NCBI GenBank assembly: GCA_030745875.1
Contig: JASLNT010000106.1
Location: 1 to 64,000, forward strand
From: Phycisphaerae bacterium
Lineage (GTDB): Bacteria; Planctomycetota; Phycisphaerae; SM23-33
Length of the DNA: 64,000 nucleotides
Reading direction: 5' to 3'
The notes beneath the pieces are model-generated. The model did not search any database and was not told the origin of the DNA. It worked only from the letters and a program-made list of their open reading frames with translations. Position 1 is the stretch's first letter; each line of letters opens with the position of its first letter. Both the position numbers and the translations under genes were made by a program. This document shows, piece by piece, positions 25,328 through 45,661 of this stretch.

Positions 25328-26116
25328 TCAGCCGGCGGCCAGTTCCTTTTTGCGACGCTCCAACTGGCCCCTTAGACGAATGAGTATCGCCGAATGCATC
25401 TGGCTGACGCGACTCTCGCTGAGGTCGAGGGTCTCGCCGATTTCCTTCATCGTCATCTCTTCGAAGTAGTACAGGATAATGATCAGGCGTTCGGCGCGGC
25501 TTAACCCTCGCGTCACAAGATCCTTGATGTCCTTCTTCTGGGCGCTCTTGAACGGGTCGTCGCTGCGCCCGTCGCGAAGAACGTCTATCTCGCGGACATC
25601 CTTGTTGCCGTCAGTCTCGTACCATTTTCGACTTAACGACACCAACCCCGTTGCATGCGCATCGCGCTGAAGCTTGTTGAAGTCCTTCATTGACAGCTTC
25701 ATGACCTTCGCCAGCTCCTTGGCGGTCGGTTTGCGGCCGAGTTGCGCCTCGAGAAGATGCGTGGCGGCGTTCAGCTTCGAAGCTCGACTTCTGACGAGCC
25801 GCGGCACCCAGTCCATGGCGCGCAGTTCATCAAGAATGGCTCCGCGCACTCTCGGGGCGCAATATGTCTCGAACTTCACGCCGCGCTCAGGATCGTAGGC
25901 CTTCAGCGCGTCCAGCAAACCAAAAACCCCCGCCGAAATCAGATCGTCCACGTCCACCTCGTCAGGCAGACGAACACGCAAACGCTCGGCCGAGTACTTC
26001 ACAATCGGTAGGTAGTTCTCCAGCAATCGGTTACGAGATTCCTCGTCTCGCTTGGCCAGGTACGTCTTCCACCATTTCTGAACTTGCTCAGGAGGCGCCT
26101 TATCAGAACGCTTCAT
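25328..26116 (-). CDS. fliA: Flagellar/motility sigma factor, sigma-28 family
   Basis: 262 residues with sigma regions 2, 3 and 4: LPIVKYSAERLRVRLPDEVDVDDLISAG (region 2), ELRAMDWVPRLVRSRA (typical of FliA/WhiG region 2.4-3), and MTMKEIGETLDLSESRVSQMHSAILIRLR (region 4 helix-turn-helix). It directs RNA polymerase to late flagellar promoters. Start ATG 26116 has AAAGGAG at good spacing; the frame is open 11 codons further but lacks a site there. It is the last gene of the flagellar block, separated from flhG by 388 bases, so it may have its own promoter. No anti-sigma FlgM is visible. Confidence 0.93.
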   Translation of the reverse strand: MKRSDKAPPEQVQKWWKTYLAKRDEESRNRLLENYLPIVKYSAERLRVRLPDEVDVDDLISAGVFGLLDALKAYDPERGVKFETYCAPRVRGAILDELRAMDWVPRLVRSRASKLNAATHLLEAQLGRKPTAKELAKVMKLSMKDFNKLQRDAHATGLVSLSRKWYETDGNKDVREIDVLRDGRSDDPFKSAQKKDIKDLVTRGLSRAERLIIILYYFEEMTMKEIGETLDLSESRVSQMHSAILIRLRGQLERRKKELAAG

Positions 26117-26504
26117 CGTACTGCTCCTTTCGCACACTTGCGTGCACATGTCCTCAGTGAGTCTCCCAGCGACCCGTAATTAGTTGTCAAATAAGATAGT
26201 ATCAATTGCACTTTCCTAACCTTGAAGCTGTGAGCACTGCCTGATCTCCGCCGACATTTAGCCCAGACAGCGCGGTGCAGACTATAGGAATCGGCAACAG
26301 CCCTGCACAAACTGCATATTTTATTTTTTTTCTCTATCTTACCTAGTTTACCCTGCCTGTGCTGTCTATCCATTCGATTGCATTGAATGCGCTTTATATT
26401 CCCTATCGGCGCGCTAATCGATCTATTTGCGCGCCATGCGCCATTTCGCAGGATCAATTGTTCCTGAATCGAATCTAGATCATTGATATTCAAGGTGTTA
26501 TGAA
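26117..26504. other. 388-base gap between flhG and fliA
   Basis: No convincing gene. The stretch is AT-richer than its surroundings, with a T-rich run near 26320-26345. It contains an inverted repeat GGCGCGC (26408-26414) and GCGCGCC (26429-26435) with a 14-base loop, about 70 bases after the flhG stop. It probably holds the flhG transcript end and a promoter for fliA, but I could not identify a clear -35/-10 pair. Confidence 0.5.
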
Positions 26505-27389
26505 TCATGCAAAAAGTCTCACCATGCGACGGAAGAAGCCTTCTTTCTGTCTTACCAAGGCTCCGCCCGGCGAGAGTTTGTTTACCAGGGCGCCAATCGC
26601 CCTGCTTGCTGGACACTTGGGATATGCCAGAACAAACGCCTGACGTCGCCTCACCGACTGCCGAACTTTCGGGTCCTCGTCGATATATCCCGCGTCGAAA
26701 ACGCGGATGTCCAGGAATCGCTTTGCAACCTCAGCCAGTCGCTGGTAGGTCGCACGTCCTTCCTGACGGTTGTCGGCCTGGTTTGTCAGCACGCTCAGGC
26801 TGCCAAGATACCCTCTGCGGGCCAGAGCCTTGATCATCCCGTAGGCGTCGGTGATTGCCGTAGGTTCGGGTGTGGTAACCACCAGAACAATGTCTGCGCC
26901 CGAGGCGAACTGGAGTACGTCCGGGCCAATCCCCGCAGCACAATCGATAATAATCAGATCGTTGTCAGCTTCGAGTTGCGTCAACTCTTCGGCCAGTCGC
27001 GTCCTCTGGAACTCGCTAAGATTCGCCAGCCTCGCCAATCCGCTTGCTCCTGCTACAAACTGCACGCCGCTGGGCAAATCCACCACCACATCCTCCAGCC
27101 GCTTCGTTCCTGCGACAACGTGTGAGATATCGCCATGGATGTCCGCGTTCAGGAGCACGTCGAGATTGGCCATTCCCATGTCCGCATCGACCAGAGCGAC
27201 CCGGTTTCCCGCGCCGGACAGGAGTATGGACAGGTTCAGCGCTACGTTGGATTTTCCCACTCCGCCTTTGCCCGAACAAACCGCGATTGTTTTGGTCAAG
27301 CGACCGGCCTGCGGAGGCGGGGGTTGGACCTTGCGGCTTTTGGGACGACTCATCATTTGTCTTAATTTGGTGGCTTGGTCTTTATGCAT
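26505..27389 (-). CDS. flhG: Flagellar number regulator FlhG (MinD-like ATPase)
   Basis: 294-residue ParA/MinD-type ATPase. The N-terminal DQATKLRQ motif (4-11) is the FlhG signature that stimulates the FlhF GTPase. The deviant Walker A CSGKGGVGKS spans 38-47, the switch DADMGMANLD follows, and LIIIDCAAG comes later. The C-terminal FFRRMVRLF resembles the amphipathic membrane-targeting helix of MinD proteins. With FlhF it sets flagellar number and placement. The start overlaps the flhF end by eight bases. Confidence 0.93.
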   Translation of the reverse strand: MHKDQATKLRQMMSRPKSRKVQPPPPQAGRLTKTIAVCSGKGGVGKSNVALNLSILLSGAGNRVALVDADMGMANLDVLLNADIHGDISHVVAGTKRLEDVVVDLPSGVQFVAGASGLARLANLSEFQRTRLAEELTQLEADNDLIIIDCAAGIGPDVLQFASGADIVLVVTTPEPTAITDAYGMIKALARRGYLGSLSVLTNQADNRQEGRATYQRLAEVAKRFLDIRVFDAGYIDEDPKVRQSVRRRQAFVLAYPKCPASRAIGALVNKLSPGGALVRQKEGFFRRMVRLFA

Positions 27390-28611
27390 TTTCTCGCCCC
27401 CCCACTATCTTCCACGCCAGATCTTCGGCGTTGGCTGGTGCAATATCGTCAGGTACTTCCTGTCCGCTGGTCACGTACGCCATCGGGCCCACATCAGCCA
27501 AAGCCATGTCCAGAAGCACTCCATACGTGGAAGCCTCGTCGAGTTTCGTAACCAGCAGTCTGTTGGCGCCGAGAGGCGCGAATCGATCGAGAATACCGCG
27601 AATGCATCTCGGGTTGGAAGCCGCCGACACCACAACGTGTATCTCGTCGGCGTCGGCGGCGTCGAGGAAGCTACGCAGTTGGCTCAACCTCAACAGGTCG
27701 TTCTGGCTTCGTCCCGTTGTATCTATCAGCACGACATCCATACCTCGTAGTGCGTATATTGCCTGGCGGAGTTCCGGGGGACTCAGCACCGTCCGCAGGG
27801 GCACTTCCACAATCTCGGCGTATGTCTGCAGTTGATCTACTGCGGCCACCCTGTAGGTGTCGATTGTGATCATTCCCACGCGCAGTCCCTGGCGGAGCTT
27901 GAAGTTGGCCGCCAGCTTTGCGATTGTCGTAGTCTTGCCCACTCCGGTGGGACCTATCAGGGCGACCACTCTGCACTGCCTGCTGTTCTTACCCACGTGT
28001 TCAGTCGGGTCGATCGTCTGGATCCGATCGGCGATTCTCTTGCACAACTCCCGCCTTACCAGCGTCTGATCGCTCTGCTGACGCCCGGTAAGGTCCATTT
28101 GCAGGCTCTCGATAAGTTCTGCTGCCACAGTATCTTTCACATCCTGGGCTAGGAGGTCTGCGTAGAATTCTCGCAGAGGCCCGTTCCCAGGCCCCGCTGA
28201 TCCGGCCTGGCCGAGCAGGGTGCGTATCATCTGCTTGAGATCGGACACCTCTCCGGCCAGGTGCGCAGTTCCACCGCCCCCGCCTGGCGACACCGCCGCC
28301 ATTTGCTCCAGTGCAATCGCCGCCGGGGTCTTGGGCTTCTCGGGGACGTTGGCTTGGGGTTCCTCGACAAGCGGATCGTCGGAGCGTTCGAGCGGGAGTT
28401 CGGTAACGTATTGTCCCTGCTTGTCGTCTCCGGCCAGATCCGCAGCCGGGCATGCGGTGATCTCCCACATCGCCTTTCCGCCGATCAATCCCAGGAACCC
28501 GCCCTTGCGGTAGCTGCGGGTTCTTAGTATCACCGCGTCGCGACCGAGGTCGTGTTTGACCTCGCCCAGGACGTTCGCCATTGTGTCGGCATGGTAGGTT
28601 CGTTCGGTCAT
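27382..28611 (-). CDS. flhF: Flagellar SRP-type GTPase FlhF
   Basis: 409 residues. A variable N-terminal domain (RTYHADTMANVLGEVKHDLG, typical of FlhF) is followed by a helical linker and the SRP GTPase NG domain, with P-loop GPTGVGKTTTIAKLA near 220, DTYRVAAVDQLQTYA, IDTTGRS and the guanine-specificity TKLDEA. FlhF marks the site of flagellum assembly. It overlaps flhA by four bases and flhG by eight, so the three are probably translationally coupled. Confidence 0.93.
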   Translation of the reverse strand: MTERTYHADTMANVLGEVKHDLGRDAVILRTRSYRKGGFLGLIGGKAMWEITACPAADLAGDDKQGQYVTELPLERSDDPLVEEPQANVPEKPKTPAAIALEQMAAVSPGGGGGTAHLAGEVSDLKQMIRTLLGQAGSAGPGNGPLREFYADLLAQDVKDTVAAELIESLQMDLTGRQQSDQTLVRRELCKRIADRIQTIDPTEHVGKNSRQCRVVALIGPTGVGKTTTIAKLAANFKLRQGLRVGMITIDTYRVAAVDQLQTYAEIVEVPLRTVLSPPELRQAIYALRGMDVVLIDTTGRSQNDLLRLSQLRSFLDAADADEIHVVVSAASNPRCIRGILDRFAPLGANRLLVTKLDEASTYGVLLDMALADVGPMAYVTSGQEVPDDIAPANAEDLAWKIVGGRENA

Positions 28612-30719
28612 AGGTCAATCCCTACATGTTCGAGACTCTGAACCTCAACTGATTCGATTTCGTTATATCCCAGTACGGCTGCGTCGGGATCGCTTGTGCG
28701 CAACATCTGCTTTACGTGCAATCGCACGTCCGGTCCGCAAAGCACCACGGCGCGGCGGCCGGATTGCCTGAGGCGTTCCAGGGCGTCGCTGACGGCGCCG
28801 GATATCTGTGCGGTAAGTTCCGGTCCGGCGGTCATTACAATTCCGTCCGGCCCGCGCGTCACGTGCTCCTGCAGGGCGCTTTCAGTTTGCGCCGCGAGGC
28901 TCACGCACCACAACTTCCCGTCCTGAGAGCAGTACTGACGACTCAGCGACATGCCAAGATCGGCGCGAACGTGCTCGCAGAGAATCTCGGGGCAGGTGGT
29001 CTGGGACGCCCGTTCGCACAAACTCTCCAGGATGGACTCCAGGTCGCGAATGGAGACCCGCTCGGCCAGGAGATGACTGAGCACCTTGTGTATCACGTAC
29101 GCGGGCAGTTTCTCAGCGACCTCGTCTACGAGCCCCTGGTCGCGTTGCCCTACGGCCTGCAGCATCTCGGTAACGTGTCTCCTCGAAAGCAGTCTCGGAG
29201 CGTTGTCGCCAATCACCTTTTCCAGGTGATTCATCAGGACATTAACCGGAGCAATCACGGTGTATCCCATCTGTTGTGCTCTGGCCTGTTGGGGCTCGGT
29301 GATCCAGACGGCGTGGCATCCGCTGGCCGGGTCGATGGTCTCCCGCCCGATGAGTTTCCCGGCGGTCGTCCCTTCAGCCACCGCCAGCATCTGCGCCGGA
29401 TATATCCTCCCCTGAGCCGCCGCAACCCCCCGTATGTGCATTGCGTAATTGTGGGCTCCCAGGCGCATGTTGTCGCGAACCACTACCGGAGGCACGAGCA
29501 GGCCCAACTCCAGTCCTATACGACGCCTGAGAGAGGCTATTTCATTAAGCAGATCGTTCTCGGATGAATCGTCCAGAAGACGGACCAGCGCGTAACCAAT
29601 TTCAATCCGCAGCGGATCCACCGATACGAGATCTGCAACGTCTACATCCGCCGACTCGCCTGGAGATCTCCCGTCACCGACGGTCCCATCATCTTGTGAG
29701 TCCTGTAGTTCCTGCTGTTTGCGTGAAAGCATCCAGGCCAGGCCCGCACACCCCAAACCCAGGATTACCAAAGGAGCTTTCGGCAAGGCCGTCAGCGTTA
29801 ACGCCGACAGGAACACCGCCGTTATCCCCAGAACGACCGGACGTGCTGTCAGTTGCGCGACAACTTCTTCACCGAGATTCGTTCGAGCCGTGTTGCGCGA
29901 AACAAGCAACGCCGCCGATATCGATATCAGGAATGCGGGAATCTGCGTCACCAGTCCGTCTCCCACGGTCAGTCGCGTAAAGACGTCGGCGGTTTCGGCG
30001 GCGCCCCACCCGTACTGGATCATTCCCACGTAGAACCCGCCGAGCACGTTAACAACGGTGATGATCATTGCCGCCAACGCATCGCCCCGAATGAACTTCG
30101 AGGCGCCGTCCATAGCTCCGTAGAAGTCCGCCCTGTTCGACACCTCTTCGCGTCGGGCTCGAGCCTCGTCTTTTTCGATCAGCCCCGCGTTGAGATCCGA
30201 GTCGATCGCCATCTGCTTACCGGGCATAGCGTCCAGAACGAATCTCGCGGCCACTTCGCTTATCCGCGCGGCGCCTTTGGTTACAACGACAAACTGGATG
30301 ACCACGAGGATAACAAACAGAATCACTCCAACAGCCAGCGAGCCGGAAGTTACAAAGGAGCTGAACGCATAGATAACGCCTCCGGCCGCATGCGCCGCAT
30401 GGTCCGGCCCGCCGCCGTCGGCTCCGGCGGTGAGAATTAATCTGGTTGTCGCGACATTAAGTACAAGGCGGAACAGCGTCGCCCCAAGCAGCAGCGACGG
30501 GAATACGTTGAATTCGAGCGGGCTGCGTACGTGGATCGTCGTAAGCAATATCACCGCCGCCAAAGCGATATTCATCGCCAGGAAAATGTCGATCAACAGC
30601 GGCGGGATCGGAACCAGGATGACGAATATCAGCGCAGCGGCGCCCACGGGCAGGATCAGACCGCGATGGCGGCTGATGAATCTGCCTGTAGCCTCAAATG
30701 TCGCTGAAAGTTCACTCAC
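28608..30719 (-). CDS. flhA: Flagellar export gate protein FlhA
   Basis: 703 residues, normal length. Eight membrane segments fill the N-terminal half, with the family signature loop around RISEVAARFVLDAMPGKQM and AIDSDLNAGLI. The large cytoplasmic domain (about 370-703) forms the nonameric ring that docks chaperone-substrate complexes. It is the major component of the flagellar type III export gate with FlhB and FliPQR. Start and stop overlap flhB and flhF by four bases each. Confidence 0.96.
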   Translation of the reverse strand: MSELSATFEATGRFISRHRGLILPVGAAALIFVILVPIPPLLIDIFLAMNIALAAVILLTTIHVRSPLEFNVFPSLLLGATLFRLVLNVATTRLILTAGADGGGPDHAAHAAGGVIYAFSSFVTSGSLAVGVILFVILVVIQFVVVTKGAARISEVAARFVLDAMPGKQMAIDSDLNAGLIEKDEARARREEVSNRADFYGAMDGASKFIRGDALAAMIITVVNVLGGFYVGMIQYGWGAAETADVFTRLTVGDGLVTQIPAFLISISAALLVSRNTARTNLGEEVVAQLTARPVVLGITAVFLSALTLTALPKAPLVILGLGCAGLAWMLSRKQQELQDSQDDGTVGDGRSPGESADVDVADLVSVDPLRIEIGYALVRLLDDSSENDLLNEIASLRRRIGLELGLLVPPVVVRDNMRLGAHNYAMHIRGVAAAQGRIYPAQMLAVAEGTTAGKLIGRETIDPASGCHAVWITEPQQARAQQMGYTVIAPVNVLMNHLEKVIGDNAPRLLSRRHVTEMLQAVGQRDQGLVDEVAEKLPAYVIHKVLSHLLAERVSIRDLESILESLCERASQTTCPEILCEHVRADLGMSLSRQYCSQDGKLWCVSLAAQTESALQEHVTRGPDGIVMTAGPELTAQISGAVSDALERLRQSGRRAVVLCGPDVRLHVKQMLRTSDPDAAVLGYNEIESVEVQSLEHVGIDL

Positions 30720-31510
30720 GATTCATCTCCCGATCCCGTCTGACCGGTCTTCATTTCCGCCTGGCGGGCTCTGCGGCGTCTGGATCGCATTAACGGGTCG
30801 CCTTCGGTCTTCCGCAGGTCTTCGAGTACTTCCCTGCGGGTCATCATCAGGTCCCGTCGATGCCTGCGCCACTGATACAACCAGTCGATCCCGCCCAGCA
30901 CCGCCAGCACAAGCAGGATTCTCCAGGCCATCCGGCCCAGCATCGCCCATGCGCCAATCCACTGCCGCTCGACGCCGAATCCGCACGCCAACGCAATTTC
31001 CGGAAGCAGTTGATCGATAGTCATCCACGCGACAAATCCGACCGCTGCAATCTTGGTCAGCGCCAGCATCGCCCCCGCCAAACCGCGCGATGAGAAGATC
31101 CGCTTGAGCCCCTGACCGGGGGATAGCCTGTCCAGGCGCGGTTTGGCGACTTCCTCGCTGACATGCAAACCAACCTGAGCAATACCCGCCAGCGCAGCGA
31201 CCAGCACCATCAGGGCGCAGAAACACACCGTAATCCATGTCACAGGCCCAGCAGCCGACCACAACGCCGACCCGGCTGCGGTCCCTACATCGGGCGTGCT
31301 GCGCTCGAAGCTGAGCATACTGTCGAACATTTTGGTGAGCTCTCGCAGCAACACCTCGCCGCCCAGCCAAAACGCAACCACCGCCGCCAAGATGACCGCC
31401 ACACCGGTGAGGTCGGCGCTTCTGGCGACCTGCCCCCGCCGCCTGGCCTCAGCCAGCCTCAGCACTGTGGGCTGCTCGGTTCGTTGGTCTGTATCGCTTC
31501 GTGTCGCCAT
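30716..31510 (-). CDS. flhB: FlhB export-gate protein lacking the self-cleaving C-domain
   Basis: 264 residues against roughly 350-380 in typical FlhB. The transmembrane half is clear: QRTEQPTVLRLAEARRRGQV (like TEKPTPKKLxxARxxGQV), LSPGQGLKRIFSSRGL, and the linker start EVLEDLRKTEGDPLMRSR (228-243). It ends 24 residues after GDPL, where other FlhB proteins continue to the NPTH autocleavage site about 35 residues on. The stop codon overlaps the flhA ATG by four bases, so this is an established gene end and not an obvious sequencing break. The substrate-specificity-switch domain must be supplied by another protein or be dispensable. Confidence 0.9.
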   Translation of the reverse strand: MATRSDTDQRTEQPTVLRLAEARRRGQVARSADLTGVAVILAAVVAFWLGGEVLLRELTKMFDSMLSFERSTPDVGTAAGSALWSAAGPVTWITVCFCALMVLVAALAGIAQVGLHVSEEVAKPRLDRLSPGQGLKRIFSSRGLAGAMLALTKIAAVGFVAWMTIDQLLPEIALACGFGVERQWIGAWAMLGRMAWRILLVLAVLGGIDWLYQWRRHRRDLMMTRREVLEDLRKTEGDPLMRSRRRRARQAEMKTGQTGSGDES

Positions 31511-31521
31511 CTATCTTTAAC

Positions 31522-32295
31522 CTACTGTCCAGGCGCCAGGACCTGTCCGATCGAATCCAGGATTATCTCCGTGCCTGTTTCCACCACCGCCGCCAGCGTA
31601 ACCAATGCGCCCGCCAGCACGATCAGCGTCAGTATCGCCCGCACGGGAAGGGCCATCGAAAGAATGTGAAACTGCGGAACAGATCGCTGGAGCATTCCCA
31701 TGGCGATCCCCGCAAGCAGCAGCGTAATAAGCACCGGAGCAGCCACTTTCAGCGCCAGCACAAAACTGACGGCTGTAAGTGAGATCATCGTCTCGAACAC
31801 TCCCGGGCTCGGGGTCATACCGGCCAGCGGTACGACGCTGAATGTTTTGAGCACGGCCGATATCACCGACCGATGCCCTCCGATCCCAAGAAACACAACT
31901 ATCGCAAGCAGACTGAAGAACCGCCGCATCACTCCAGGGGCCGACGGACTGACCGGGTTGAACATCTCGCCCAACGACAATCCCATCTGCGAGGCGATGT
32001 GGTAGGCTCCCAGTTCCACGCCGACAAACACCAGCCCCGCAGTCCAGCCAATCGCCACACCGATGAGCAACTCGCCGCCAAGAGCGACCAGAAGCCCGCC
32101 CGTCCCGCCTGCAATCGCAACCGGCTGGCCGAGGCGACCTGTCACCGCGACCGCCGCCGCAACGGCCAGAAAATAACGCAGCTTCATCGGTACGGTGGTG
32201 TGGCTGAATACGGGACTCACCGCAAACATACCGCCCAGCCGCACCAGCACTAGCAGCAGCGTAAGATTCCAGGTTGTCAGTGCGGTGTATTCCAC
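31522..32295 (-). CDS. fliR: Flagellar export gate protein FliR
   Basis: 257 residues, several hydrophobic helices. The family signatures LLVLVRLGGMFAVSPVFS near the start and GELLIGVAIGWTAGLVFVGVELGA, then QMGLSLGEMFNP, are visible. FliR forms the export channel core with FliP and FliQ. It follows fliQ by 15 bases and is followed by flhB after 11, in the conserved order fliP-fliQ-fliR-flhB-flhA. Confidence 0.93.
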   Translation of the reverse strand: MEYTALTTWNLTLLLVLVRLGGMFAVSPVFSHTTVPMKLRYFLAVAAAVAVTGRLGQPVAIAGGTGGLLVALGGELLIGVAIGWTAGLVFVGVELGAYHIASQMGLSLGEMFNPVSPSAPGVMRRFFSLLAIVVFLGIGGHRSVISAVLKTFSVVPLAGMTPSPGVFETMISLTAVSFVLALKVAAPVLITLLLAGIAMGMLQRSVPQFHILSMALPVRAILTLIVLAGALVTLAAVVETGTEIILDSIGQVLAPGQ

Positions 32296-32310: not shown

Positions 32311-32571
32311 TTATGGCAGGGAGCACGTGAACATCTCCCGACCGAACTCAACAAGTTTCGACAGCATCCACGGAGCCGTGATCGCAAACGCCAACAACAT
32401 CGCGAGTATTCTGGGCACGAGGCCCAACGTCTGATCCTGAACCTGCGTGACGGCCTGGAGCACGCTCACCACAAGCGCCGTAATCAAGCCCGTGACCAAC
32501 ACGGGCAGAGACAGGAAGATCAGCAACATGATCGCCTGTCTGGCAAGTTCAATTCCTTGATCAGCGTTCAT
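32311..32571 (-). CDS. fliQ: Flagellar export gate protein FliQ
   Basis: 86-residue protein with two transmembrane helices. The conserved VTGLITALVVSVLQAVTQVQDQTLGLVPRILAM region is plain by eye and the length matches FliQ. It forms part of the FliPQR export channel. It starts three bases after the fliP stop. Confidence 0.95.
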   Translation of the reverse strand: MNADQGIELARQAIMLLIFLSLPVLVTGLITALVVSVLQAVTQVQDQTLGLVPRILAMLLAFAITAPWMLSKLVEFGREMFTCSLP

Positions 32572-32574
32572 CAG

Positions 32575-33348
32575 TTATCCAAAGCTCTTCATTAATGTCC
32601 CGACAACCAGATGCCATCCGTCAGCCAGCACGAACAGCAGCAGTTTGAACGGCAGCGAAATCAGCGACGGAGGAAGCATCAGCATTCCCATCGACACCAG
32701 GAAAGTCGCCACCAGCATGTCAATCACCAGGAAAGGCAGGAAGATTCTGAATCCCATCCAGAATGCGACCTTTAGTTCGCTGACCACAAACGCGGGTATC
32801 AGCGACACCGTCGGCACGTCCTTCCACACCAGATTCTCCCTGGCCGCAATGTCGTCGCTCAGAAACAGATATACGTCCGAACTGTTTCCGGCGGCTTGAA
32901 TCTGCGTGGTCATGAACTCTCGAATATGCGTTTCACCGGCGGACACCGCGTCGTTCCTGCTGACCTTACCGTCGAGATACGGGCTGATCGCATCCTTGTG
33001 GACTTTGTTGTATGTCGGAGCCATCACCACCGCGGTCATCAGCAGCGACAATCCGAAGATCACCTGGTTCGGAGGCAACTGCGCCGACCCGAGAGCCTGC
33101 CTGAGCAGCCCGAGCACGACAACTATTCGCGTGAAACACGTAACCATAACCAGCAGCGCCGGAGCCACTGACAGAACCGTAACCATCACCACCCACGTGA
33201 TAACCGTACCGGACCCGCCGGGAGTTTCGATATTGGGCAACGACTTCACCAGTCCGCCCGGTCCGCCGGCGGGAGCCTGGGCGGCGGGGGCAACCGCAGA
33301 AATCATCAGCACTATCAGTGCAACTGAGATAATCCGGGAGGTCTTCAT
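32575..33348 (-). CDS. fliP: Flagellar export gate protein FliP
   Basis: 257 residues. A cleavable N-terminal signal (VALIVLMISAVAPAAQA) is usual for FliP. Signatures: FTRIVVVLGLLRQALGSAQLPPNQVI, then PTYNKVHKDAISPY, PAFVVSELKVAFWMGFRIFLPFLVIDM and MGMLMLPPSLISLPFKLLLFVLADGW. Five FliP copies form the core of the export channel. The ATG overlaps the fliO stop by four bases. Confidence 0.96.
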   Translation of the reverse strand: MKTSRIISVALIVLMISAVAPAAQAPAGGPGGLVKSLPNIETPGGSGTVITWVVMVTVLSVAPALLVMVTCFTRIVVVLGLLRQALGSAQLPPNQVIFGLSLLMTAVVMAPTYNKVHKDAISPYLDGKVSRNDAVSAGETHIREFMTTQIQAAGNSSDVYLFLSDDIAARENLVWKDVPTVSLIPAFVVSELKVAFWMGFRIFLPFLVIDMLVATFLVSMGMLMLPPSLISLPFKLLLFVLADGWHLVVGTLMKSFG

Positions 33349-33890
33349 GCATCGCCCTCCCGATTGGCTGCGTTGTCAACGGCCTTCTTCAGACCGACTT
33401 TGCAGGCGGCTTCGATAAGCGCCGCCGCCTCATCAGCATCCGTGACCTCGCTAAGCGTAGTCAGCGACGCGGGCCCCTGCCCGACCAGCACGACACGGCG
33501 TCCCATCCTCACCAGCAACAGTTGATGCCGCGCCGAAACACTCGTCCTGGCCAGCACATCAAGCATATCTCGTCTCTGCGGACCGGATATCGGACCGAAA
33601 CGCTTGAGCATTACTCTGGCCAGGAAGATCAACACAACAACCAGCGCCAGCGCCCCCAGCGTACGTCCCCACTGAGTCCACGGACTTTGCGGTCCGGAAT
33701 CGACTTTCTTACCTTCGGACGGACCAACCAGGCGTTCGGACACACCCGACTGGCGACCTGTTTCGCCCTGCTGCGTGGTCGGCTGGGTGGTGGGCTGCGA
33801 AGTTGCCCGAGAGGCCTGACCCCGCGCAGAAGCGCACAGCACAACCGCTATGATCAGCGGCGTGGCGAGATATTTCAGCGTCGTTGTCAT
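33345..33890 (-). CDS. fliO: FliO-like flagellar biosynthesis protein
   Basis: 181 residues. A signal-like N-terminus (about 1-25) is followed by a Ser/Thr/Gln-rich linker, one transmembrane helix (TLGALALVVVLIFLARVML, about 90-108), and a small cytoplasmic domain with DMLDVLARTSVSARHQLLLVRMGRRVVLVGQ, the usual FliO core. FliO assists assembly of the FliP ring. Its position directly before fliP and after fliN supports the call; sequence conservation of this family is low. Confidence 0.82.
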   Translation of the reverse strand: MTTTLKYLATPLIIAVVLCASARGQASRATSQPTTQPTTQQGETGRQSGVSERLVGPSEGKKVDSGPQSPWTQWGRTLGALALVVVLIFLARVMLKRFGPISGPQRRDMLDVLARTSVSARHQLLLVRMGRRVVLVGQGPASLTTLSEVTDADEAAALIEAACKVGLKKAVDNAANREGDA

Positions 33891-34133
33891 CTATTCGGTC
33901 TTGTCGCCTTGTGTGTCCGTGGGTAGAAGTTCGGATACTTCAACGCCCAGTTTTCCGTCCACAACCACAGCATGGCCGCGTGCGATGAGGCGGCTGTCGA
34001 AGTAGACCTGTACGTCCGGGTCGCCGCGCGTGTCGAGCTGAACAGTTGAGCCGACCGCCAATTCAGGCACCTCGTCCTGCCACAACCACGTCCTGCCGAC
34101 TTCCACTCTCAATGGCGGCGTGCTAGTAAACAT
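33891..34133 (-). CDS. fliN: Short FliN-type SpoA-domain rotor protein
   Basis: 80 residues that amount to a single SpoA (FliM/FliN C-terminal) domain: VEVGRTWLWQDEVPELAVGSTVQLDT and VYFDSRLIARGHAVVVDGKLGVEV. E. coli FliN is about 137 residues, so there is no N-terminal extension. It would form the lower C-ring and bind FliH of the export ATPase complex. ATG 34133 has GGAG seven bases upstream, inside the end of fliJ (overlap 11 bases). No fliM is in the window. Confidence 0.82.
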   Translation of the reverse strand: MFTSTPPLRVEVGRTWLWQDEVPELAVGSTVQLDTRGDPDVQVYFDSRLIARGHAVVVDGKLGVEVSELLPTDTQGDKTE

Positions 34134-34602
34134 CCGGATGCTCCAATAACTCGTAAGATTCGCCGGGGCGGACCTGGCGGCCTGAACCGACTTGTTTATC
34201 GATCTCCGCAGCGCGTCGCAGCGCGATCATCCGAACAAGCCTGCGGTGATATTGATCGGCGGATTTCCTGGCCCGGTGGGCCTCAAGCAGCACGGCTTCA
34301 CACTGCAGCAACGCTCTGTTCTGCATCTGTTTTTCGTCTTCGAGACGCGACAGTTCCTTGCGAATATCCGCTGTTCTGCGTGCGTACTGGCCTAGCAGTC
34401 CAGCTGTTCCGCCAGCCAGCAGTTCATCTCTAGCGGCCGCGTCGTATTGACCCAATGTTTGGTTAAGGGCGGCTATCCGAGTCTCGATCGCCTGCAGGCG
34501 ACATAGGGTGCCAGCCTGACTTCTCCGGGCGACATTCTCGTCGTGCATACGCATTCTCAAGAGCACGCGACTTCGTTTTGTGGTTCTGGTGTCGTTCATC
34601 AT
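34123..34602 (-). CDS. fliJ: FliJ-like flagellar export protein
   Basis: 159 residues, almost wholly charged alpha-helix, as in the FliJ coiled coil that inserts into the FliI hexamer. The N-terminus (RSRVLLRMRMHDENVARRSQ) and the repeated arginine/leucine heptads fit. The call rests mainly on position (straight after fliI, before fliN), size and coiled-coil character, since the family is poorly conserved. Tandem ATG starts at 34602/34599 abut the fliI stop. Confidence 0.75.
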   Translation of the reverse strand: MMNDTRTTKRSRVLLRMRMHDENVARRSQAGTLCRLQAIETRIAALNQTLGQYDAAARDELLAGGTAGLLGQYARRTADIRKELSRLEDEKQMQNRALLQCEAVLLEAHRARKSADQYHRRLVRMIALRRAAEIDKQVGSGRQVRPGESYELLEHPDVY

Positions 34603-35970
34603 CTACCCGTGCAGGGTCATCTCCGGTATTTGCTCATCGGTCTGTTCAATTTCACCGCCGACCCGGCGGCAGAGTTCCAGCAGGGCCTCAACGGTTTTGG
34701 GAAGTTGCATTTCCGGATTGTCGAAAGCGTCCTGGGCGGTGAATTCCCGCACCAGCGGAATGGCTTCTACGGCGGTGTCAAACTGGCGGGAGTTGCCTTT
34801 TCGGTAGGCCCCTATATTGACCATGTCTTCAATTTCGCGATAAAGAGCGCCCACTCGCCTGATCTTACCGGCCGCTTCGATGTGCTCAGCGCCGGTCACC
34901 TCGCCCATGACTCGCGAGATGCTCTCCAGAAAATCGATAGCCGGAAACTCTCCGCGATTCGCCATCTCCGCCGACAGCACGACGTGTCCGTCAGCAACGG
35001 ACCGCACTGCATCGCTGATCGGTCCGGCAGTGTCGGGCCCTTCGGTCAGGACCGAGTAGAATCCGGTTATGGATCCGGCGTCGGTTCGTCCGACACGTTC
35101 GAGTAATTCGGGCAGCAGGCCGAAGACGCTTGGCGTGTATCCGCCCGCCGTCGGCGGTTCGCCCGCGACGAGACCGATCTGCCGCTGGGCGGTCGCCAGA
35201 CGCGTCAGCGAGTCCATGACGAGCACTACGTTTTTGCCCGCGTCGCGGAAGTACTCGGCTATGCAGGTGGCGACAGCTCCGGCCTGGACGCGAACGAGCG
35301 GAGGCTGGTCACTGGTTGACGCGACAACTACGGCTCGTTTGAGGCCTTCCTGTCCGAGTTCCTTTTCAACGAAGTCGCGGACCTCGCGTCCGCGCTCGCC
35401 TATGAGCGCTATTACGACCACGTCGGCGTCGCAGTAGCGGCTGATCATTCCCATCAGCACGCTCTTGCCCGCCCCTGACGGGGAGAAAATCCCCATACGC
35501 TGCCCGCGTCCCACGGTCAACATCGAATCGATCGCCCGCACGCCGGTCACCAGAGGTTCGGATATCCGCCTCCGCAACATCGGCGAGATCGGCTCGGGCC
35601 AGAGGGGCATGTGAACCTCGGGCGTAAGGTCGCTGAGCCCGTCGATGGGCCTGGCCATCCCGTCGACCACGCGTCCGAGCATCTGGTCTCCCACGGGTAC
35701 GGTCGGCTGGCCGTCGGTGCATTCAACGCGATCTCCGCGACAGATGCCGACCGTCGAGCCCAGCGGCATGACGAGGGTCAACTCGCCCGAAAACCCGATA
35801 ACGCGTGCGGCGAGTGCGCTGTGTCCGCGAGTGATTCTGCAACCGGCTCCCACGGGCGCGGGGAAATCTCCGACGGCGACCGTCAGACCGCGGACGGAGA
35901 CCACCTGCCCGGTCACACTGACCGGTTGCACCTGCGAAAGCATCTGTCTGTATCGATCAAGTGGAGACAT
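34603..35970 (-). CDS. fliI: Flagellum-specific ATPase FliI
   Basis: 455 residues from ATG 35970 (a TTG three codons upstream is also open). F1-ATPase beta-like type III secretion ATPase: P-loop SPSGAGKSVLMG near 163, RVVDGMARPIDG, IALIGERGREVRDFVEKELG, VLVMDSLTRLATAQRQIGL and EPPTAGGYTPSVFGLLPELLERVGR. It drives export together with FliH and FliJ. The N-terminus overlaps the end of fliH by about 14 bases. Confidence 0.96.
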   Translation of the reverse strand: MSPLDRYRQMLSQVQPVSVTGQVVSVRGLTVAVGDFPAPVGAGCRITRGHSALAARVIGFSGELTLVMPLGSTVGICRGDRVECTDGQPTVPVGDQMLGRVVDGMARPIDGLSDLTPEVHMPLWPEPISPMLRRRISEPLVTGVRAIDSMLTVGRGQRMGIFSPSGAGKSVLMGMISRYCDADVVVIALIGERGREVRDFVEKELGQEGLKRAVVVASTSDQPPLVRVQAGAVATCIAEYFRDAGKNVVLVMDSLTRLATAQRQIGLVAGEPPTAGGYTPSVFGLLPELLERVGRTDAGSITGFYSVLTEGPDTAGPISDAVRSVADGHVVLSAEMANRGEFPAIDFLESISRVMGEVTGAEHIEAAGKIRRVGALYREIEDMVNIGAYRKGNSRQFDTAVEAIPLVREFTAQDAFDNPEMQLPKTVEALLELCRRVGGEIEQTDEQIPEMTLHG

Positions 35971-36733
35971 CGCTGTCAATGATCCTCAGATGTGGAACCG
36001 GTTCGTACTTTCCGGAGACCTCGGGCGATCCGAACGGACCGCCGGCGGTAAGCGCCGAAGCGACTTTGTCCAACTGTGTTTCGACGGTGGCGTCAATCAC
36101 GCCGCGAGCGGTTGTTATCTTCACACCGCCCGGAGCCACTTGTCGATCGGCGACAAGTCTGGCCCGGGCCGAGGCGTCGATAACCTCCACGAACTCCGCA
36201 AAATCGCTTGAAAGGGCCTGCAGTTGAAGGGGATTCACCGCGACGATTATCTCGCCCTCGGCGTGGGCGAGCCTCATCGCCTTGATGAGATTTGTCCTGG
36301 CTACGGATATATCGGTCCGAGCCAACCGCCCGACAATCTTGGATGAAAGATCAAGCGCGAAGTTCAGCACCTCGTCGGCGGCGAACTGATAGGGCCTATC
36401 GCCTGCTTCATCGAGCGTCGCCAGAATCGCCCCGGCGACATCCGCCAACTGCTTCGACTCGCCGGCGATACTCGCTCGGGCCTGATCACCGCCTTCACGA
36501 GCCCCATCTGTCAAACCCTGCTTCCGACCTTCTGCAAAGCCTGCGTCGTATCCCTGCTTGCGGGCCTGCCGTTTGGCCAGTTCGACGTTGGCGCGTGCTT
36601 CAGCCTTGATTTTCGCGGCCGTTTTGCGGGCGTCGAGTATCAGCGCGTTGGCTTGGGCGGCGATGTCGGTGAGTTTCATCACGGGTCTGTCGTCACTGGG
36701 AACGCGCCTTGCTTTCTTGATAATCCGGGTCAT
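35957..36733 (-). CDS. fliH: FliH-like export ATPase regulator
   Basis: 258 residues. The N-terminal half is a long charged helix (ALILDARKTAAKIKAEARANVELAKRQA split by Gly/Ala patterns such as GYDAGFAEGRKQG, typical of FliH). The C-terminal half has the FliH/V-ATPase-E-like pattern ALDLSSKIVGRLARTDI and SARARLVADRQVAPGGVKITTARGVIDATVETQLDK. It links FliI to FliN. Start ATG overlaps the fliF-fliG stop by four bases. Confidence 0.88.
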   Translation of the reverse strand: MTRIIKKARRVPSDDRPVMKLTDIAAQANALILDARKTAAKIKAEARANVELAKRQARKQGYDAGFAEGRKQGLTDGAREGGDQARASIAGESKQLADVAGAILATLDEAGDRPYQFAADEVLNFALDLSSKIVGRLARTDISVARTNLIKAMRLAHAEGEIIVAVNPLQLQALSSDFAEFVEVIDASARARLVADRQVAPGGVKITTARGVIDATVETQLDKVASALTAGGPFGSPEVSGKYEPVPHLRIIDSDVST

Positions 36734-38532
36734 ACTGCTTCCTCCACGGCCTGACCGCAGGCGGCCTGGCTTACGATCTCAATCACGCGCTGGCGAGCGG
36801 ATTCGACATCGCATATGCGCATCGGGCCTATCCGATCCATTCTGGCCCGGACGTACTCGGCGTCCTTAGGCGACAGGCATCCCAGCACTTTCCGCCTGAC
36901 CTGTCTGGCGGCCATTCGAAGTGAAATTGCAAGGTCATCGGGTTCGACCGCGCCGAGAACAACGCGAAGCTCACCAGCGCCCAGATGGGTTATGTCTTCA
37001 AAGGCCATCAACTTCAGCGCGTCCCGCTCGGCCCGCCGACGATTGATGTTCTCGGTTTCCGCGAGTTGACCGGACAGACCGCCCGACGGACCGTCCAGAC
37101 GCCTGGCCAGATCTCGATTAATCTCGGCGACGATTTCCGCATCGGCGTCACTGAGATCGCCCATCCTTCTGGCGACTTCCGCACGGAGTTCCGCCGGCAG
37201 ACGGGAGATGATCTCCGCAGCCTGGCCCGAGGGCATACGAACGAGGATCAACGCCAGAGTCTGCGGATGCTCCCGCCCGAGGTCTTCGTCACGACCATCG
37301 TCGCCATCGTCCGAGAAGGGAGCCAGCATGTCGTAGCTGAGTTCATTGTGAGCTTCGTCGTCCGGCGTCGAACCGTCCCCACCGGGCGTTGGATGAACTG
37401 ATCTTCGCCATCGCAAAAGCACCCACGCCCCCAACGCGCCGACAAATACAGCCCCTGCGATCGCAGCGAAGACTATGCCCCCGCCTACGCCGCTGTGTGT
37501 TTCCATAAGGTCCGAACCGGACTTGGCGATAATCGGACCGTGCAAAGCAACGGTTACCTCGTGGCTGCCGGTGGGCCCCAGAATCGCCCTGACCGCATCC
37601 TTAACCGACGCCAACTGCTGAGCCGCGGATTCCTTGCTGCCAGCCGACGAGACATAACTCTTGGGAATCGACACCCATACTCTAAGCCCGTCACCGGCGA
37701 TCCGATATCCGCCGGATGCGTGTTTCAGTCCGGCCCGGGCTCCGATAATCTGCACGTCGGCGGACATTCCCGGAATGTAACGCAACGCCGACACGATCTT
37801 CTCGCTGTAATACGCCTCAACCGTATGACGTTGAGCAAACGATTGAGCGTCAGACGACGGTCGATAGCTCCGACCGGTCTGATCGATCACGCGAACATCG
37901 CCGATCTCCACGGCGACGCTTCCGGAAATCAACTCTCCAATGGCGACTATCAGGCCCGGAGACATTCGGCGCCCTTTAGCAAGCCTTACTGTCACGGCCG
38001 CTCTTGCCGCCTGCGCTTTTGAACCAAGCCCGCCCGGAGATCCCGGTTCGAAGAATACTGACGCCGATGCGATAGGATCCATCTCGGATATCAGGCGTCC
38101 GAGTTCGGCCATCACGCCGGCTTGCCATAGACGGCGGTTTTCGGCGCTGCTGCGCCACATGCTTAGACCGCCAGCCAGTCGCCGCAAGCCCGAGCCGGAA
38201 GATCCGCCGTCCGGAATATCGGAGCGTAGAATATTTCGAGCATCGCCCAGATGCTGCGGGGATACGGTGAGCCCGCCTTCTGTACGGCCGACGCGGATAC
38301 CCTCTCGCTCGAGAGCGGCAGCCGCACGCTCGCGGGCCTCGCCGTCCAGATTGCGAGCGATCACAGTTGTCGGCTCGGGGGTAATCACCGCCCAAACCAA
38401 CCACACCGCCCCGCCCAAGACAACGGCTGCAAGCAGAGCAGCGGTTAATCGCGCACCGGCGCCCAGGCCTGCCAGACGAACTCTCAGACGAACTACATGT
38501 CGCTTCAACCTCTTCACATCCCGGTCCTCCAT
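36730..38532 (-). CDS. fliF: FliF-FliG fusion: MS-ring protein joined to rotor switch protein
   Basis: One 600-residue frame with two normally separate proteins. FliF part: TM1 28-50, ring-building motifs 55-225 (ALEREGIRVGRTEGGLTV, DARNILRSDIPDGG, ENRRLWQAGVMAELGRLI, ARAAVTVRLAKGRRMSP), a reduced RBM3 region about 235-335, and TM2 351-374. After an acidic linker (385-418) comes a FliG part: EHPQT at 421-425, IISRLPAELRAEVARRMG, and the C-terminal torque domain about 505-595 (MAFEDI, RIGPMR, DVESARQRVIEI). FliG's N-terminal domain, which normally binds FliF's tail, is missing, as expected if fusion replaces that contact. The residues matching E. coli FliG D288/D289 are Ala563/Arg564. No separate fliG is in the window. 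First motor gene of the operon. Confidence 0.9.
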   Translation of the reverse strand: MEDRDVKRLKRHVVRLRVRLAGLGAGARLTAALLAAVVLGGAVWLVWAVITPEPTTVIARNLDGEARERAAAALEREGIRVGRTEGGLTVSPQHLGDARNILRSDIPDGGSSGSGLRRLAGGLSMWRSSAENRRLWQAGVMAELGRLISEMDPIASASVFFEPGSPGGLGSKAQAARAAVTVRLAKGRRMSPGLIVAIGELISGSVAVEIGDVRVIDQTGRSYRPSSDAQSFAQRHTVEAYYSEKIVSALRYIPGMSADVQIIGARAGLKHASGGYRIAGDGLRVWVSIPKSYVSSAGSKESAAQQLASVKDAVRAILGPTGSHEVTVALHGPIIAKSGSDLMETHSGVGGGIVFAAIAGAVFVGALGAWVLLRWRRSVHPTPGGDGSTPDDEAHNELSYDMLAPFSDDGDDGRDEDLGREHPQTLALILVRMPSGQAAEIISRLPAELRAEVARRMGDLSDADAEIVAEINRDLARRLDGPSGGLSGQLAETENINRRRAERDALKLMAFEDITHLGAGELRVVLGAVEPDDLAISLRMAARQVRRKVLGCLSPKDAEYVRARMDRIGPMRICDVESARQRVIEIVSQAACGQAVEEAV

Positions 38533-38571: not shown

Positions 38572-39078
38572 CTAATCGGCATCTAGCTTTGCATAGTACT
38601 CCCGGATATGCGCCAACGATTTGTGCTGAGCCTTCAACGCAATGATGCCGTTGAGACGCGCGAATACCGACTCATCGTACAGGCGGTGCCCACCGTCGGT
38701 CCGCCGCGCCTCAATGAGCAGGCCCATAGTCGTGTAGTTGTGAACGGTCTGGCGGCTCAGACCCGAATACTCAATCACCTCACCGATACGATACAGCTTC
38801 GGCGGGATTTCAATTGGCTTGGGCTCGGTAAACCGATTTCCGATCCCTGCGCGTCCCGATCCGGAGCCTGTTTGATTTGGGGAGTCTGAAGAAGGTGGAG
38901 CGTCTCGCGGACCTGCAACATCTTCTGAGCGTCCCGCACTAGATTCGTGCGGAGAGCGTGCTGCACAAGTTACATCCGCGGCGGCGCTTGGTGCGATTAC
39001 CGCATCCGCAACGCCCGAGGCCTCCACTGCACTTGCAGCATCTGTCACATCGCGTTTTTCGAATACACTTGTTTGCAT
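38572..39078 (-). CDS. MerR-like DNA-binding regulator heading the flagellar operon
   Basis: 168 residues. About 90 residues of low-complexity Ala/Ser/Pro-rich sequence precede a MerR-type winged helix (about 92-165): KLYRIGEVIEYSGLSRQTVHNYTTMGLLIEARRTDGGHRLYDE, shown here only as the hallmark order of helix-turn-helix and wing. There is no C-terminal effector domain. It ends 39 bases before fliF-fliG on the same strand and is probably the first gene of the flagellar transcript. A regulator of motility is a reasonable inference. Start ATG 39078 has no good ribosome site. Confidence 0.75.
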   Translation of the reverse strand: MQTSVFEKRDVTDAASAVEASGVADAVIAPSAAADVTCAARSPHESSAGRSEDVAGPRDAPPSSDSPNQTGSGSGRAGIGNRFTEPKPIEIPPKLYRIGEVIEYSGLSRQTVHNYTTMGLLIEARRTDGGHRLYDESVFARLNGIIALKAQHKSLAHIREYYAKLDAD

Positions 39079-43584: not shown

Positions 43585-45423
43585 CTAGTCCAGTTTCATC
43601 GACATCAGGAACTCTGCGTTCGAACTGGTCTTTGACAACTGCTTAATCAACAGTTCCATCGCCTCGGTCGATTGCATGTTGCTCGTGACTCGACGCATAT
43701 TGGCCACCAGTCTGCACTCGTCGGTGTCCATCAGCAGTTCCTCGCGTCGCGTACCGGAGCGGGAAATGTCAATCGCCGGCCAGATCCGCCGGTCGACCAG
43801 GCGTCGATCAAGATATAGTTCGGCGTTGCCCGTGCCTTTGAACTCTTCAAAGATAACCTGGTCCATTCTCGAACCGGTGTCGATCAGGGCGGTGGCGATG
43901 ATCGTAAGCGATCCGCCTTCAAGCACGGATCTGGCCGATCCGAAATACTTTCTCGGCATGACCAGAGCGCTTGCATCGACGCCTCCGGTGAGAATCTTGC
44001 CCGAGTGCGGAGCTTCAGCGTTGCACGCTCTGGCCAGACGCGTGATGCTGTCCAGCAGGATCACGACATCGTGCCCGAATTCGACCATCTGTTTGGCCTT
44101 GGCGAAGATCATCTCGGCCATAACCAGGTGACGCTTGGAGCCTTCGTCGAACGTCGACGAGACCACCTCGGCGGTGGTGTTGCGGCGCATGTCGGTGACT
44201 TCTTCGGGGCGTTCGTCTATCAACAGCACGATCACAAATGCGTCGGGATGATTGGTGGTTATCGAGTTTGCAAGCTTCTTCAGCAGGATCGTCTTGCCCG
44301 TTCGCGGAGGAGCAACGATCAGCATGCGCTGCCCAAAACCGATCGGCGTGATAAGGTTCATTACGCGCATCGAGACTTCGTCGCTGGTGGTCTCCAGGAA
44401 GATACGCCTGTCCGGATGGGCCGGCGTGAGTTCTTCGAAACTCGTAACTTTCGACAGCTTGTCGGGATCCTGGTAGTTGATCGCCTCGACCCGCAGGAGA
44501 GCAAAGTACTTCTCGGACTCCTTGGGGGGCCTGATCTGACCGGCAAGGATGTGTCCGGGCTTGAGATTGAACCTTCGGATCTGGCTGGGCGATACGTATA
44601 TGTCGTCCGGACCGGGCTGGTAGTTGTACTCGGGGCTCCGCAGGAATCCGAAACCGTCAGGAAGGATTTCCAGCACACCGTCTCCAAACATCAGACCGCT
44701 GTTGTTGACCCGATTGGAGATGATCTTGATCATCAATTCCTGGTTGCCCGTCGATTCGATGCCATCGACGCCCTCGTCTCTGGCCAGTTGGCGTAGTTCG
44801 GGGGTGCTCATCGCCTGCAGCTCGGTAATGTGCAGCGTACCCCGCTTGACCTCCTCGTAGCGTGCGTGCATCACGGCGTCAAAACCGTCTTCGAGTTTGT
44901 TGGGCTTACCGGACTTATCGCCCTTGTCGTGCTTGCCGGACTTACCGCCCTTGTCACGCTTACCGCCCTTGTCGCGCTTGCCGCCCTTACCGCGCTTGTC
45001 GCGCTTGCCGGATCTGCCTGACTTGTCCGGCTTGTCTGACTTGTCGTCATCGGAGGCGTCCGAAGCATCTGAGGGGGTGTCGGCGGCCTGGTCGACCTGT
45101 TCTTCGTCCGCAACCGGCTCGCCCTCCACGGGCTCCGCCTCAACAAGCTCCACGTCGGCGTCGCTGATCAGTTCGGCCTCAATATCCGGGCAATCCTGGG
45201 TTTCCTGTTCGATGATTTCCGGTTCGGCGACCTTCCTGGAGACCTTCTTGGCGGTCTTCTTTGCGGCCTTTTTGGCGGTCTTTTTGGCCGTCTTTTTGGC
45301 GGTCTTCTTGGCCGTCTTCTTGGCTACTTTTTTTGCGGTAGCCTTCTTTGCCGCCTTTTTGGTCGTCTTTTTGGCGGCTTTCTTCGTTGTTTTCTTCGCT
45401 GTTTTCTTTGTAGCTTTTGCCAT
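43585..45423 (-). CDS. rho: Transcription termination factor Rho with histone-H1-like N-terminus
   Basis: 612 residues from ATG 45423; E. coli Rho is 419. The extra length is an N-terminal disordered region. Residues about 1-60 are KKTAKK/KKAAKK repeats like histone H1, followed by an acidic segment and a run of GKRDKGGK-type repeats (about 130-180). The Rho core then starts with the N-terminal helix bundle ([17 protein letters not shown]), RNA-binding OSB domain ([20 protein letters not shown]), and ATPase domain with P-loop APPRTGKT, Q-loop and R-loop segments and [13 protein letters not shown]. It unwinds RNA:DNA hybrids to end transcription. The tail probably binds nucleic acid (inference). 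Confidence 0.96.
45230..45420 (-). repeat. Lysine/alanine codon repeat in rho
   Basis: Low-complexity DNA encoding tandem KKTAKK/KKAAKK units. The repeated block on plus reads like GTCTTTTTGGC with small changes. It is unstable-looking sequence prone to length change; a second low-complexity block (GKRDKGGK units) lies at about 44900-45030. Confidence 0.7.
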
Positions 45424-45661
45424 GTGTTTTACACAGCCTCCATCTGGAGCACCTGACGGTTGGGCCGGCATCCTATCCGGTCGTATCAGGCGTCTCCCCT
45501 GAGAATGCTAGTAGTTCGGTTGGTGCGTCTGATTCGTCTCTGGAAAATGTCCTCGTCGACGTGTTGTACGTTACTGCAGTCCGGCGGAGTCTGTTATTGG
45601 ACGTCCCGCCCTGGGTATGTCGCATCGGCGTTGTGCAGCACGTCTCCCGAACCGAATGCGA

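Follow-up and report, generated by a model that had tools for sequence, protein, structure and literature searches.

A natural FliF-FliG fusion in Phycisphaerae, probably the ring protein of a flagellum-derived, non-rotary export machine

FliF and FliG are normally separate proteins, and the N-terminal domain of FliG and the FliF tail dock together. Single-chain FliF-FliG proteins have been engineered in Salmonella and Vibrio (e.g., PDB 8z4d; PMC11481574) as full or near-full joins in rotary systems, and a natural FliF-FliG(M) fusion of ~330 aa is known from the non-flagellated Chlamydiaceae (Bergeron, 2016; PMC4768692), in a host not thought to be flagellated and for which few flagellar genes are reported. 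In the chlamydial protein a FliG M-like domain directly follows the second FliF membrane helix (TM2), FliG_N and FliG_C are missing, and the periplasmic part is shortened, with partial RBMs. Type III secretion (T3S) parts are also kept outside motility: Myxococcales carry a secretin- and needle-less T3SS (Abby and Rocha, 2012; PMC3459982), the needleless T3SS* (PMC12075869), and in the non-flagellated Lysobacter enzymogenes a flagellar export remnant exports heterologous flagellin and affects twitching (PMC7277350). A 2025 survey found rotor proteins without a filament in 11% of non-motile species and suggested other functions for them (PMC12199754), and our literature search, which covered few subscription papers, found no paper describing, in a planctomycete, a FliF-FliG fusion or a flagellar system that lacks a filament.

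The fusion described here, from a Phycisphaerae bacterium, is not the first natural one, the Chlamydiaceae case being earlier; beyond that case it has FliG_C as well, comes with a complete conserved operon, occurs alongside a true flagellum in some genomes and has living relatives in intermediate states. It resembles the chlamydial protein in the placing of the FliG M-like domain after TM2 and in lacking FliG_N, and differs from it in being larger and in having FliG_C, RBM1-3 and a full fliHIJNOPQR-flhBAFG operon. Like the engineered fusions it is one chain, whereas FliG_N and the FliF tail are absent. The gene set to which it belongs (hereafter system B) shares with the Myxococcales T3SS a conserved T3S basal part without motility or needle parts; that T3SS, however, is a basal branch of the non-flagellar T3SS, whereas system B nests among the flagella of a single class and keeps FliG, FlhF and FlhG. 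With the Lysobacter remnant it shares flagellar export genes kept without a flagellum, although neither FliF, FliG nor their fusion is mentioned in that report.

The fusion gene occupies 36730..38532 on the minus strand of the window (the whole 64,000-nucleotide stretch of DNA that was analysed) as a single intact 600-codon frame, exactly the extent given in the original prediction, which had left the strand unstated; the plus-strand translation of the interval contains many stops. Its 600-aa product, 63.7 kDa by calculation, runs from FliF RBM1-RBM2-RBM3 with both membrane helices through an acidic linker into FliG_M and FliG_C. Pfam matches YscJ_FliF at residues 55-222 (E 9e-15), FliG_M at 419-481 (E 5e-20) and FliG_C at 507-590 (E 3e-16), NCBIfam PRK05934 matches at the start of FliG_M (E 8e-4), and the Pfam FliG_N match is a mere echo of FliG_M, which it overlaps, and falls below cut-off. 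An AlphaFold model (alignment of 18 homologues; mean pLDDT 76) contains TM1 as a helix at about residues 25-50 (38383..38460, minus strand, as for every window feature below), RBM1 (55-105; 38218..38370) and RBM2 (129-222; 37867..38148; pN/pS ~0.2), both within the YscJ_FliF match, RBM3 (227-331; 37540..37854), TM2 (351-378; 37399..37482), and the helices of FliG_M (419-481; 37090..37278), which carries the EHPQT motif, and of FliG_C (507-590; 36763..37014). Foldseek with this model returns FliF rings, RBM2 included, and FliG structures, and the engineered fusion 8z4d is among the sequence matches of the protein. The linker (379-418; 37279..37398) is of low confidence in the model and holds 13 Asp/Glu against 1 Arg/Lys. 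Pfam, the model and composition together uphold the predicted architecture of two FliF membrane ends, acidic linker, EHPQT motif and FliG C-terminal domain.

How the join arose can be read against the sister family (f2; G001 and G002), whose type-1 flagellum has fliF, fliG, fliH, fliI, fliJ, fliN and so on to flhG and the sigma factor gene in the same order, and which supplies the closest FlhA relatives of system B. There, in contrast, FliF (535 aa) and FliG (339 aa) are separate and a beta-collar, FliG_N and rod genes are present. Aligned with these proteins, the fusion has neither the conserved C-tail of FliF nor any part of FliG_N (~110 residues), with the linker at the place of loss and the junction directly before EHPQT; FliF and FliG were evidently joined through in-frame loss of both stretches. 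A natural covalent linkage in place of the docking interface, with no FliG N-domain, is what had been predicted, and both halves of that interface are indeed missing. A long insert in RBM3 of the f2 FliF is likewise absent from the fusion, a loss that we read as that of the beta-collar. The predicted 1:1 ratio of FliF to FliG holds for this protein as long as the chain stays uncut, and is not a motor ratio; an internal start that might free a separate FliG was sought in the fusion gene, where a single ATG, at codon 402, has no clear ribosome site by eye.

The fusion gene heads a tight operon, fliFG-H-I-J-N-O-P-Q-R-flhB-A-F-G. A MerR-family regulator gene (38572..39078; Pfam), kept in most fusion loci, lies 39 bases upstream, and fliH (35957..36733; Pfam) overlaps the fusion gene by 4 bases. 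Downstream are the fliI ATPase gene (34603..35979), a weak fliJ-like gene (34123..34602; Pfam FliJ below cut-off, position conserved), fliN (33891..34133; 80 aa with a single Pfam FliMN_C domain), fliO (33345..33890; Pfam), fliP (32575..33348), fliQ (32311..32571), fliR (31522..32295), flhB (30716..31510), flhA (28608..30719), flhF (27382..28611; TIGR03499 over cut-off) and a gene for an flhG-like MinD/ParA ATPase (26505..27389; position conserved), those with no evidence named here being profile matches; a FliA/WhiG-family sigma factor gene (25328..26149; TIGR02479 over cut-off) stands 355 bases further on. FlhA, FlhB, FliP, FliQ, FliR and FliI homologues, a flagellar-type export set, are thus all present in one operon, FlhA scores better with FlhA models than with SctV models, and no separate SctJ/SctD rings, secretin or needle occur within the operon. 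A FliM-like gene, whose product keeps FliM and FliMN_C similarity, lies apart from the operon in fusion-only genomes, beside or near hflX (L070:8449-10675 in the window's genome, G000; L087 in G026; L085 in G024).

Judged from its genes, system B is best read as a flagellum-derived, non-rotary type III export machine. We consider it probable that it is a second machine of this non-rotary kind, with the fusion as its ring protein. The FliF part would form an inner-membrane ring around FliPQR/FlhB/FlhA, and the tethered FliG_M, with EHPQT kept, would hold the FliM-like and FliN proteins, which in turn would dock the FliH/FliI/FliJ ATPase complex. Such a machine could export one substrate class into or across the periplasm, or support another envelope machine, without turning; FlhF and FlhG may set its place or number, and the tethering of FliG suggests that an exchangeable rotor joint is no longer needed. 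That system B is no secretion device itself and instead helps another envelope machine, such as a pilus, a membrane nanotube or a contact-dependent killing device, seems unlikely to us, even with the precedents of Lysobacter export genes that control twitching (PMC7277350), of the Myxococcus needleless T3SS* that works with the Tad pilus (PMC12075869) and of fT3SS relatives linked with membrane nanotubes (PMC9380563). The operon of family f7, consisting of ring and export gate without FliHIJN, would suit a helper, but the operon has no conserved neighbour that could be a partner, and the window's family (f1) keeps the ATPase complex, which favours active export. A shared substrate gene was sought in the flanks and gaps of the operon, where no conserved small ORF was found, only antisense shadows of core genes.

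The survey of relatives suggested with the prediction covered 38 genomes of the order, all draft assemblies, 35 of them in f1: a frame of fusion size (513-676 codons) with both domains occurs in 18 of the 35, and the order MerR-FliFG-FliH-I-J-N-O-P-Q-R-FlhB-FlhA-FlhF-FlhG-sigma is conserved in fusion loci with enough contig. Because the fused frame recurs in 18 genomes within one conserved operon, a frameshift or assembly artefact is ruled out. In a 397-genome sample of the class, the best full-length matches are the f1 fusions and other families have separate FliGs of ~340 aa, both among the matches listed, and at least one named record with a fusion is among the FlhA matches listed. This record, L150 (fusion at 632-2353), shares 87% FlhA identity with G042, a member of family f7; its fusion, like those of f7 (G042, L270), is more reduced, with FliF and FliG_C and without FliG_M, at a locus that lacks FliH, FliI, FliJ and FliN and keeps ring and export gate. 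L150 is titled Actinomycetes, a label that is probably wrong, since the FlhA identity is to a genome of the window's class.

These differing states invite the reading that system B is a dying, functionless relic of the ancestral flagellum. Gene and domain losses do vary by lineage: ARM-C, which lies between FliG_M and FliG_C, is absent in the window's genus and present in most relatives, RBM1 is gone in others, FliG_M and FliHIJN are gone in f7, and the operon of one genome (G023) is fragmentary. Yet the frames are intact and the operon is conserved over many genera; the fusion is kept in at least 16 genera while 10 f1 genomes have a flagellum only and no fusion, so that loss is possible but is not happening everywhere. 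Among three congeners the fusion has a dN/dS (NG86) of 0.16-0.23, against 0.07-0.12 in FlhA and FliI, ratios that are rough because dS is high for some pairs, and that are low enough to indicate that selection is acting. Within the fusion, pN/pS is 0.14-0.24 in FliG_M and FliG_C, which are constrained, and 0.6-0.7 in TM2 and the linker, which are much less so. Decay without function is accordingly a distinctly improbable account of system B.

The export-machine reading also accords with descent. In a tree of FlhA, used as marker (61 sequences, quick method, without SctV), system B forms one clade (SH-aLRT 98) beside f7/L150 and then f2, within type-1 flagella that include those of named Phycisphaerae, and it appears by this marker to nest inside the ancestral Phycisphaerae flagellum; the exact place of f7/L150 is tentative, given the quick method and a long branch. 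The ancestral, vertically inherited flagellum of the class has evidently been cut down to an MS ring, C-ring parts, ATPase complex and export gate. A second set of flagellar genes (system A) stands far off in the tree for f1, with type-2 flagella of other families. It includes a separate FliF (~510 aa) and FliG (~340 aa), present in 11 of the 18 fusion genomes, and, in the loci read, its own FliH, FliI, FliO-P-Q-R, FlhB, FlhA and sigma factor together with rod and MotA genes.

What system B lacks is most apparent in the seven fusion-only genomes (G000, G004, G011, G024, G026, G035 and G036). None of these seven has a match to Flg_bb_rod, against 21 of 21 among the family's genomes that encode FliG separately, and six of the seven lack flagellin. 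A bait of concatenated MotA, FlgG, FliF and FliG from the congener G005 recovers all parts in controls (G005, G014 and G046, a type-1 flagellum among them); in the seven it finds the fusion but no MotA, FlgG or separate FliG, and in three f7 genomes (one, G042, 95% complete) it has no match, although rod, hook or stator proteins that have diverged strongly could be missed by profile searches. MotA_ExbB Pfam matches in the fusion-only genomes were taken, by size, as TolQ/ExbB types. As these genomes are 68 to 91% complete, chance loss of all these loci from every one of them is unlikely.

Motor residues have changed in parallel. At the FliG torque positions (R281, D288 and D289 in E. coli numbering), 18 of 18 separate FliGs have R/E/E. 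Of the 18 fusions, by contrast, four retain the R and one retains both acids, the acid pair being absent in 17; the window's fusion has K/A/R. Most fusions, the window's included, still have the EHPQ motif that binds FliM. NPTH, the self-cleavage switch of FlhB, is present in f2 and in no FlhB of the fusion systems, most of which, the window's among them, have the C-terminal domain deleted. The EVDALL motif of f2 FliM, of the EIDALL type that binds CheY, is absent from four system-B FliM-like proteins. In sum, system B has evidently lost, or shows no sign of, rod and hook, stator, torque charges, the FlhB switch, the beta-collar and the CheY-binding motif. Selection on FliG_C despite the changed torque residues implies that some ring or partner function remains.

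The original prediction placed the fusion in a rotary motor, where it would inform models of MS-ring:C-ring symmetry, and this part is not supported: fusion-only genomes lack rod and hook, MotA and a separate FliG, torque residues are lost, and wherever a genome has a flagellum, that flagellum has an unfused FliF and FliG of its own, encoded in a distinct gene set. An ordinary swimming flagellum whose rotor joins FliF to FliG covalently would fit the presence of all export and MS/C-ring parts, of FlhF/FlhG, of a sigma factor of the FliA type, and of flagellin and FliD in the window's genome, as well as the point made in the prediction that engineered fusions still rotate (fusion mutants are cited in PMC4768692). 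With the torque residues and FlhB switch lost, and rod/hook genes and MotA missing from all seven fusion-only genomes and flagellin from six, we hold such a rotor to be very improbable; system B is probably not a swimming motor, because axle, propeller, stator and torque residues appear lost. That the fusion ring is an alternative base, supplying a ring or an export gate for the rod, hook and filament of system A, is scarcely credible even with both systems in 11 genomes, since system A has its own FliF, FliG, FliH/I, O-P-Q-R, FlhB and FlhA, system B occurs without it in seven family genomes and in f7 genomes, the FlhA tree sets the two systems far apart, and the FliF beta-collar is missing.

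The window's own genome is 89% complete with a reported contamination of 6%. It has one FlhA and one FliG_C match, the fusion itself, and no FliG_N above cut-off and no rod, MotA or separate FliG match, so the search for a second fliG called for by the prediction found none in this assembly. A 9.6-kb contig (C5; L097:427-5907) carries flagellin, FliD and a GGDEF gene in synteny with G005:C7, G005 being a congener with a separate fliG in which system A FlhA and sigma genes lie just upstream of this region; no flagellum genes were found in the genome beyond the window's operon, C5 and the FliM-like gene. Given this synteny, and because the contig breaks off 427 bases ahead of flagellin, system A may be present but fall into a gap of the assembly; C5 may instead be a remnant or a contaminant. 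Neither answer affects the fusion itself.

Most of what is known about how a flagellum turns into a secretion device comes from a single ancient event, in which injectisomes arose. System B, read as an export machine, looks like a separate and more recent conversion, with intermediates among living relatives and an ancestor-like flagellum in the sister family, so that the order in which rod, stator, switch, torque residues and docking joint were lost becomes readable from sequence. We put forward, as a proposal with slightly less than even prospects, that this was an independent change from flagellum to non-rotary type III secretion, caught at several stages (the intact flagellum of f2, the f1 FliF-FliG(M+C) core with ATPase, and the f7 FliF-FliG_C core without FliHIJN), in which a protein of the rotor was retained to serve some purpose other than that of a motor. 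System B also raises the question of why FliG_C stays under selection where no stator is found, and it cautions that this operon should not be annotated as evidence of motility.

Several smaller observations accompany these results. The FliGs of f1 system A (e.g., L099:3991-4995) have EHPQ changed to ESPQ or similar and GPVR to an SSPK-like sequence with torque charges kept, a pattern that is the reverse of that in the fused FliGs. In G023 the fragmentary system B operon lies at contig edges (L268, L269), where FlhF and the sigma factor are each encoded in two frames rather than one and a fusion gene was not found; this is possibly a decaying system B in a genome with a flagellum. The MerR gene of the window is related to one that lies in the region of the flagellar genes in the f2 genome G002 (L257:2657-3241), and the regulator is therefore probably ancestral to the system. 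Elsewhere in the window, 43585-45471 on the minus strand encodes a Rho-like ATPase with a long Lys/Ala repeat run at its N-terminus.
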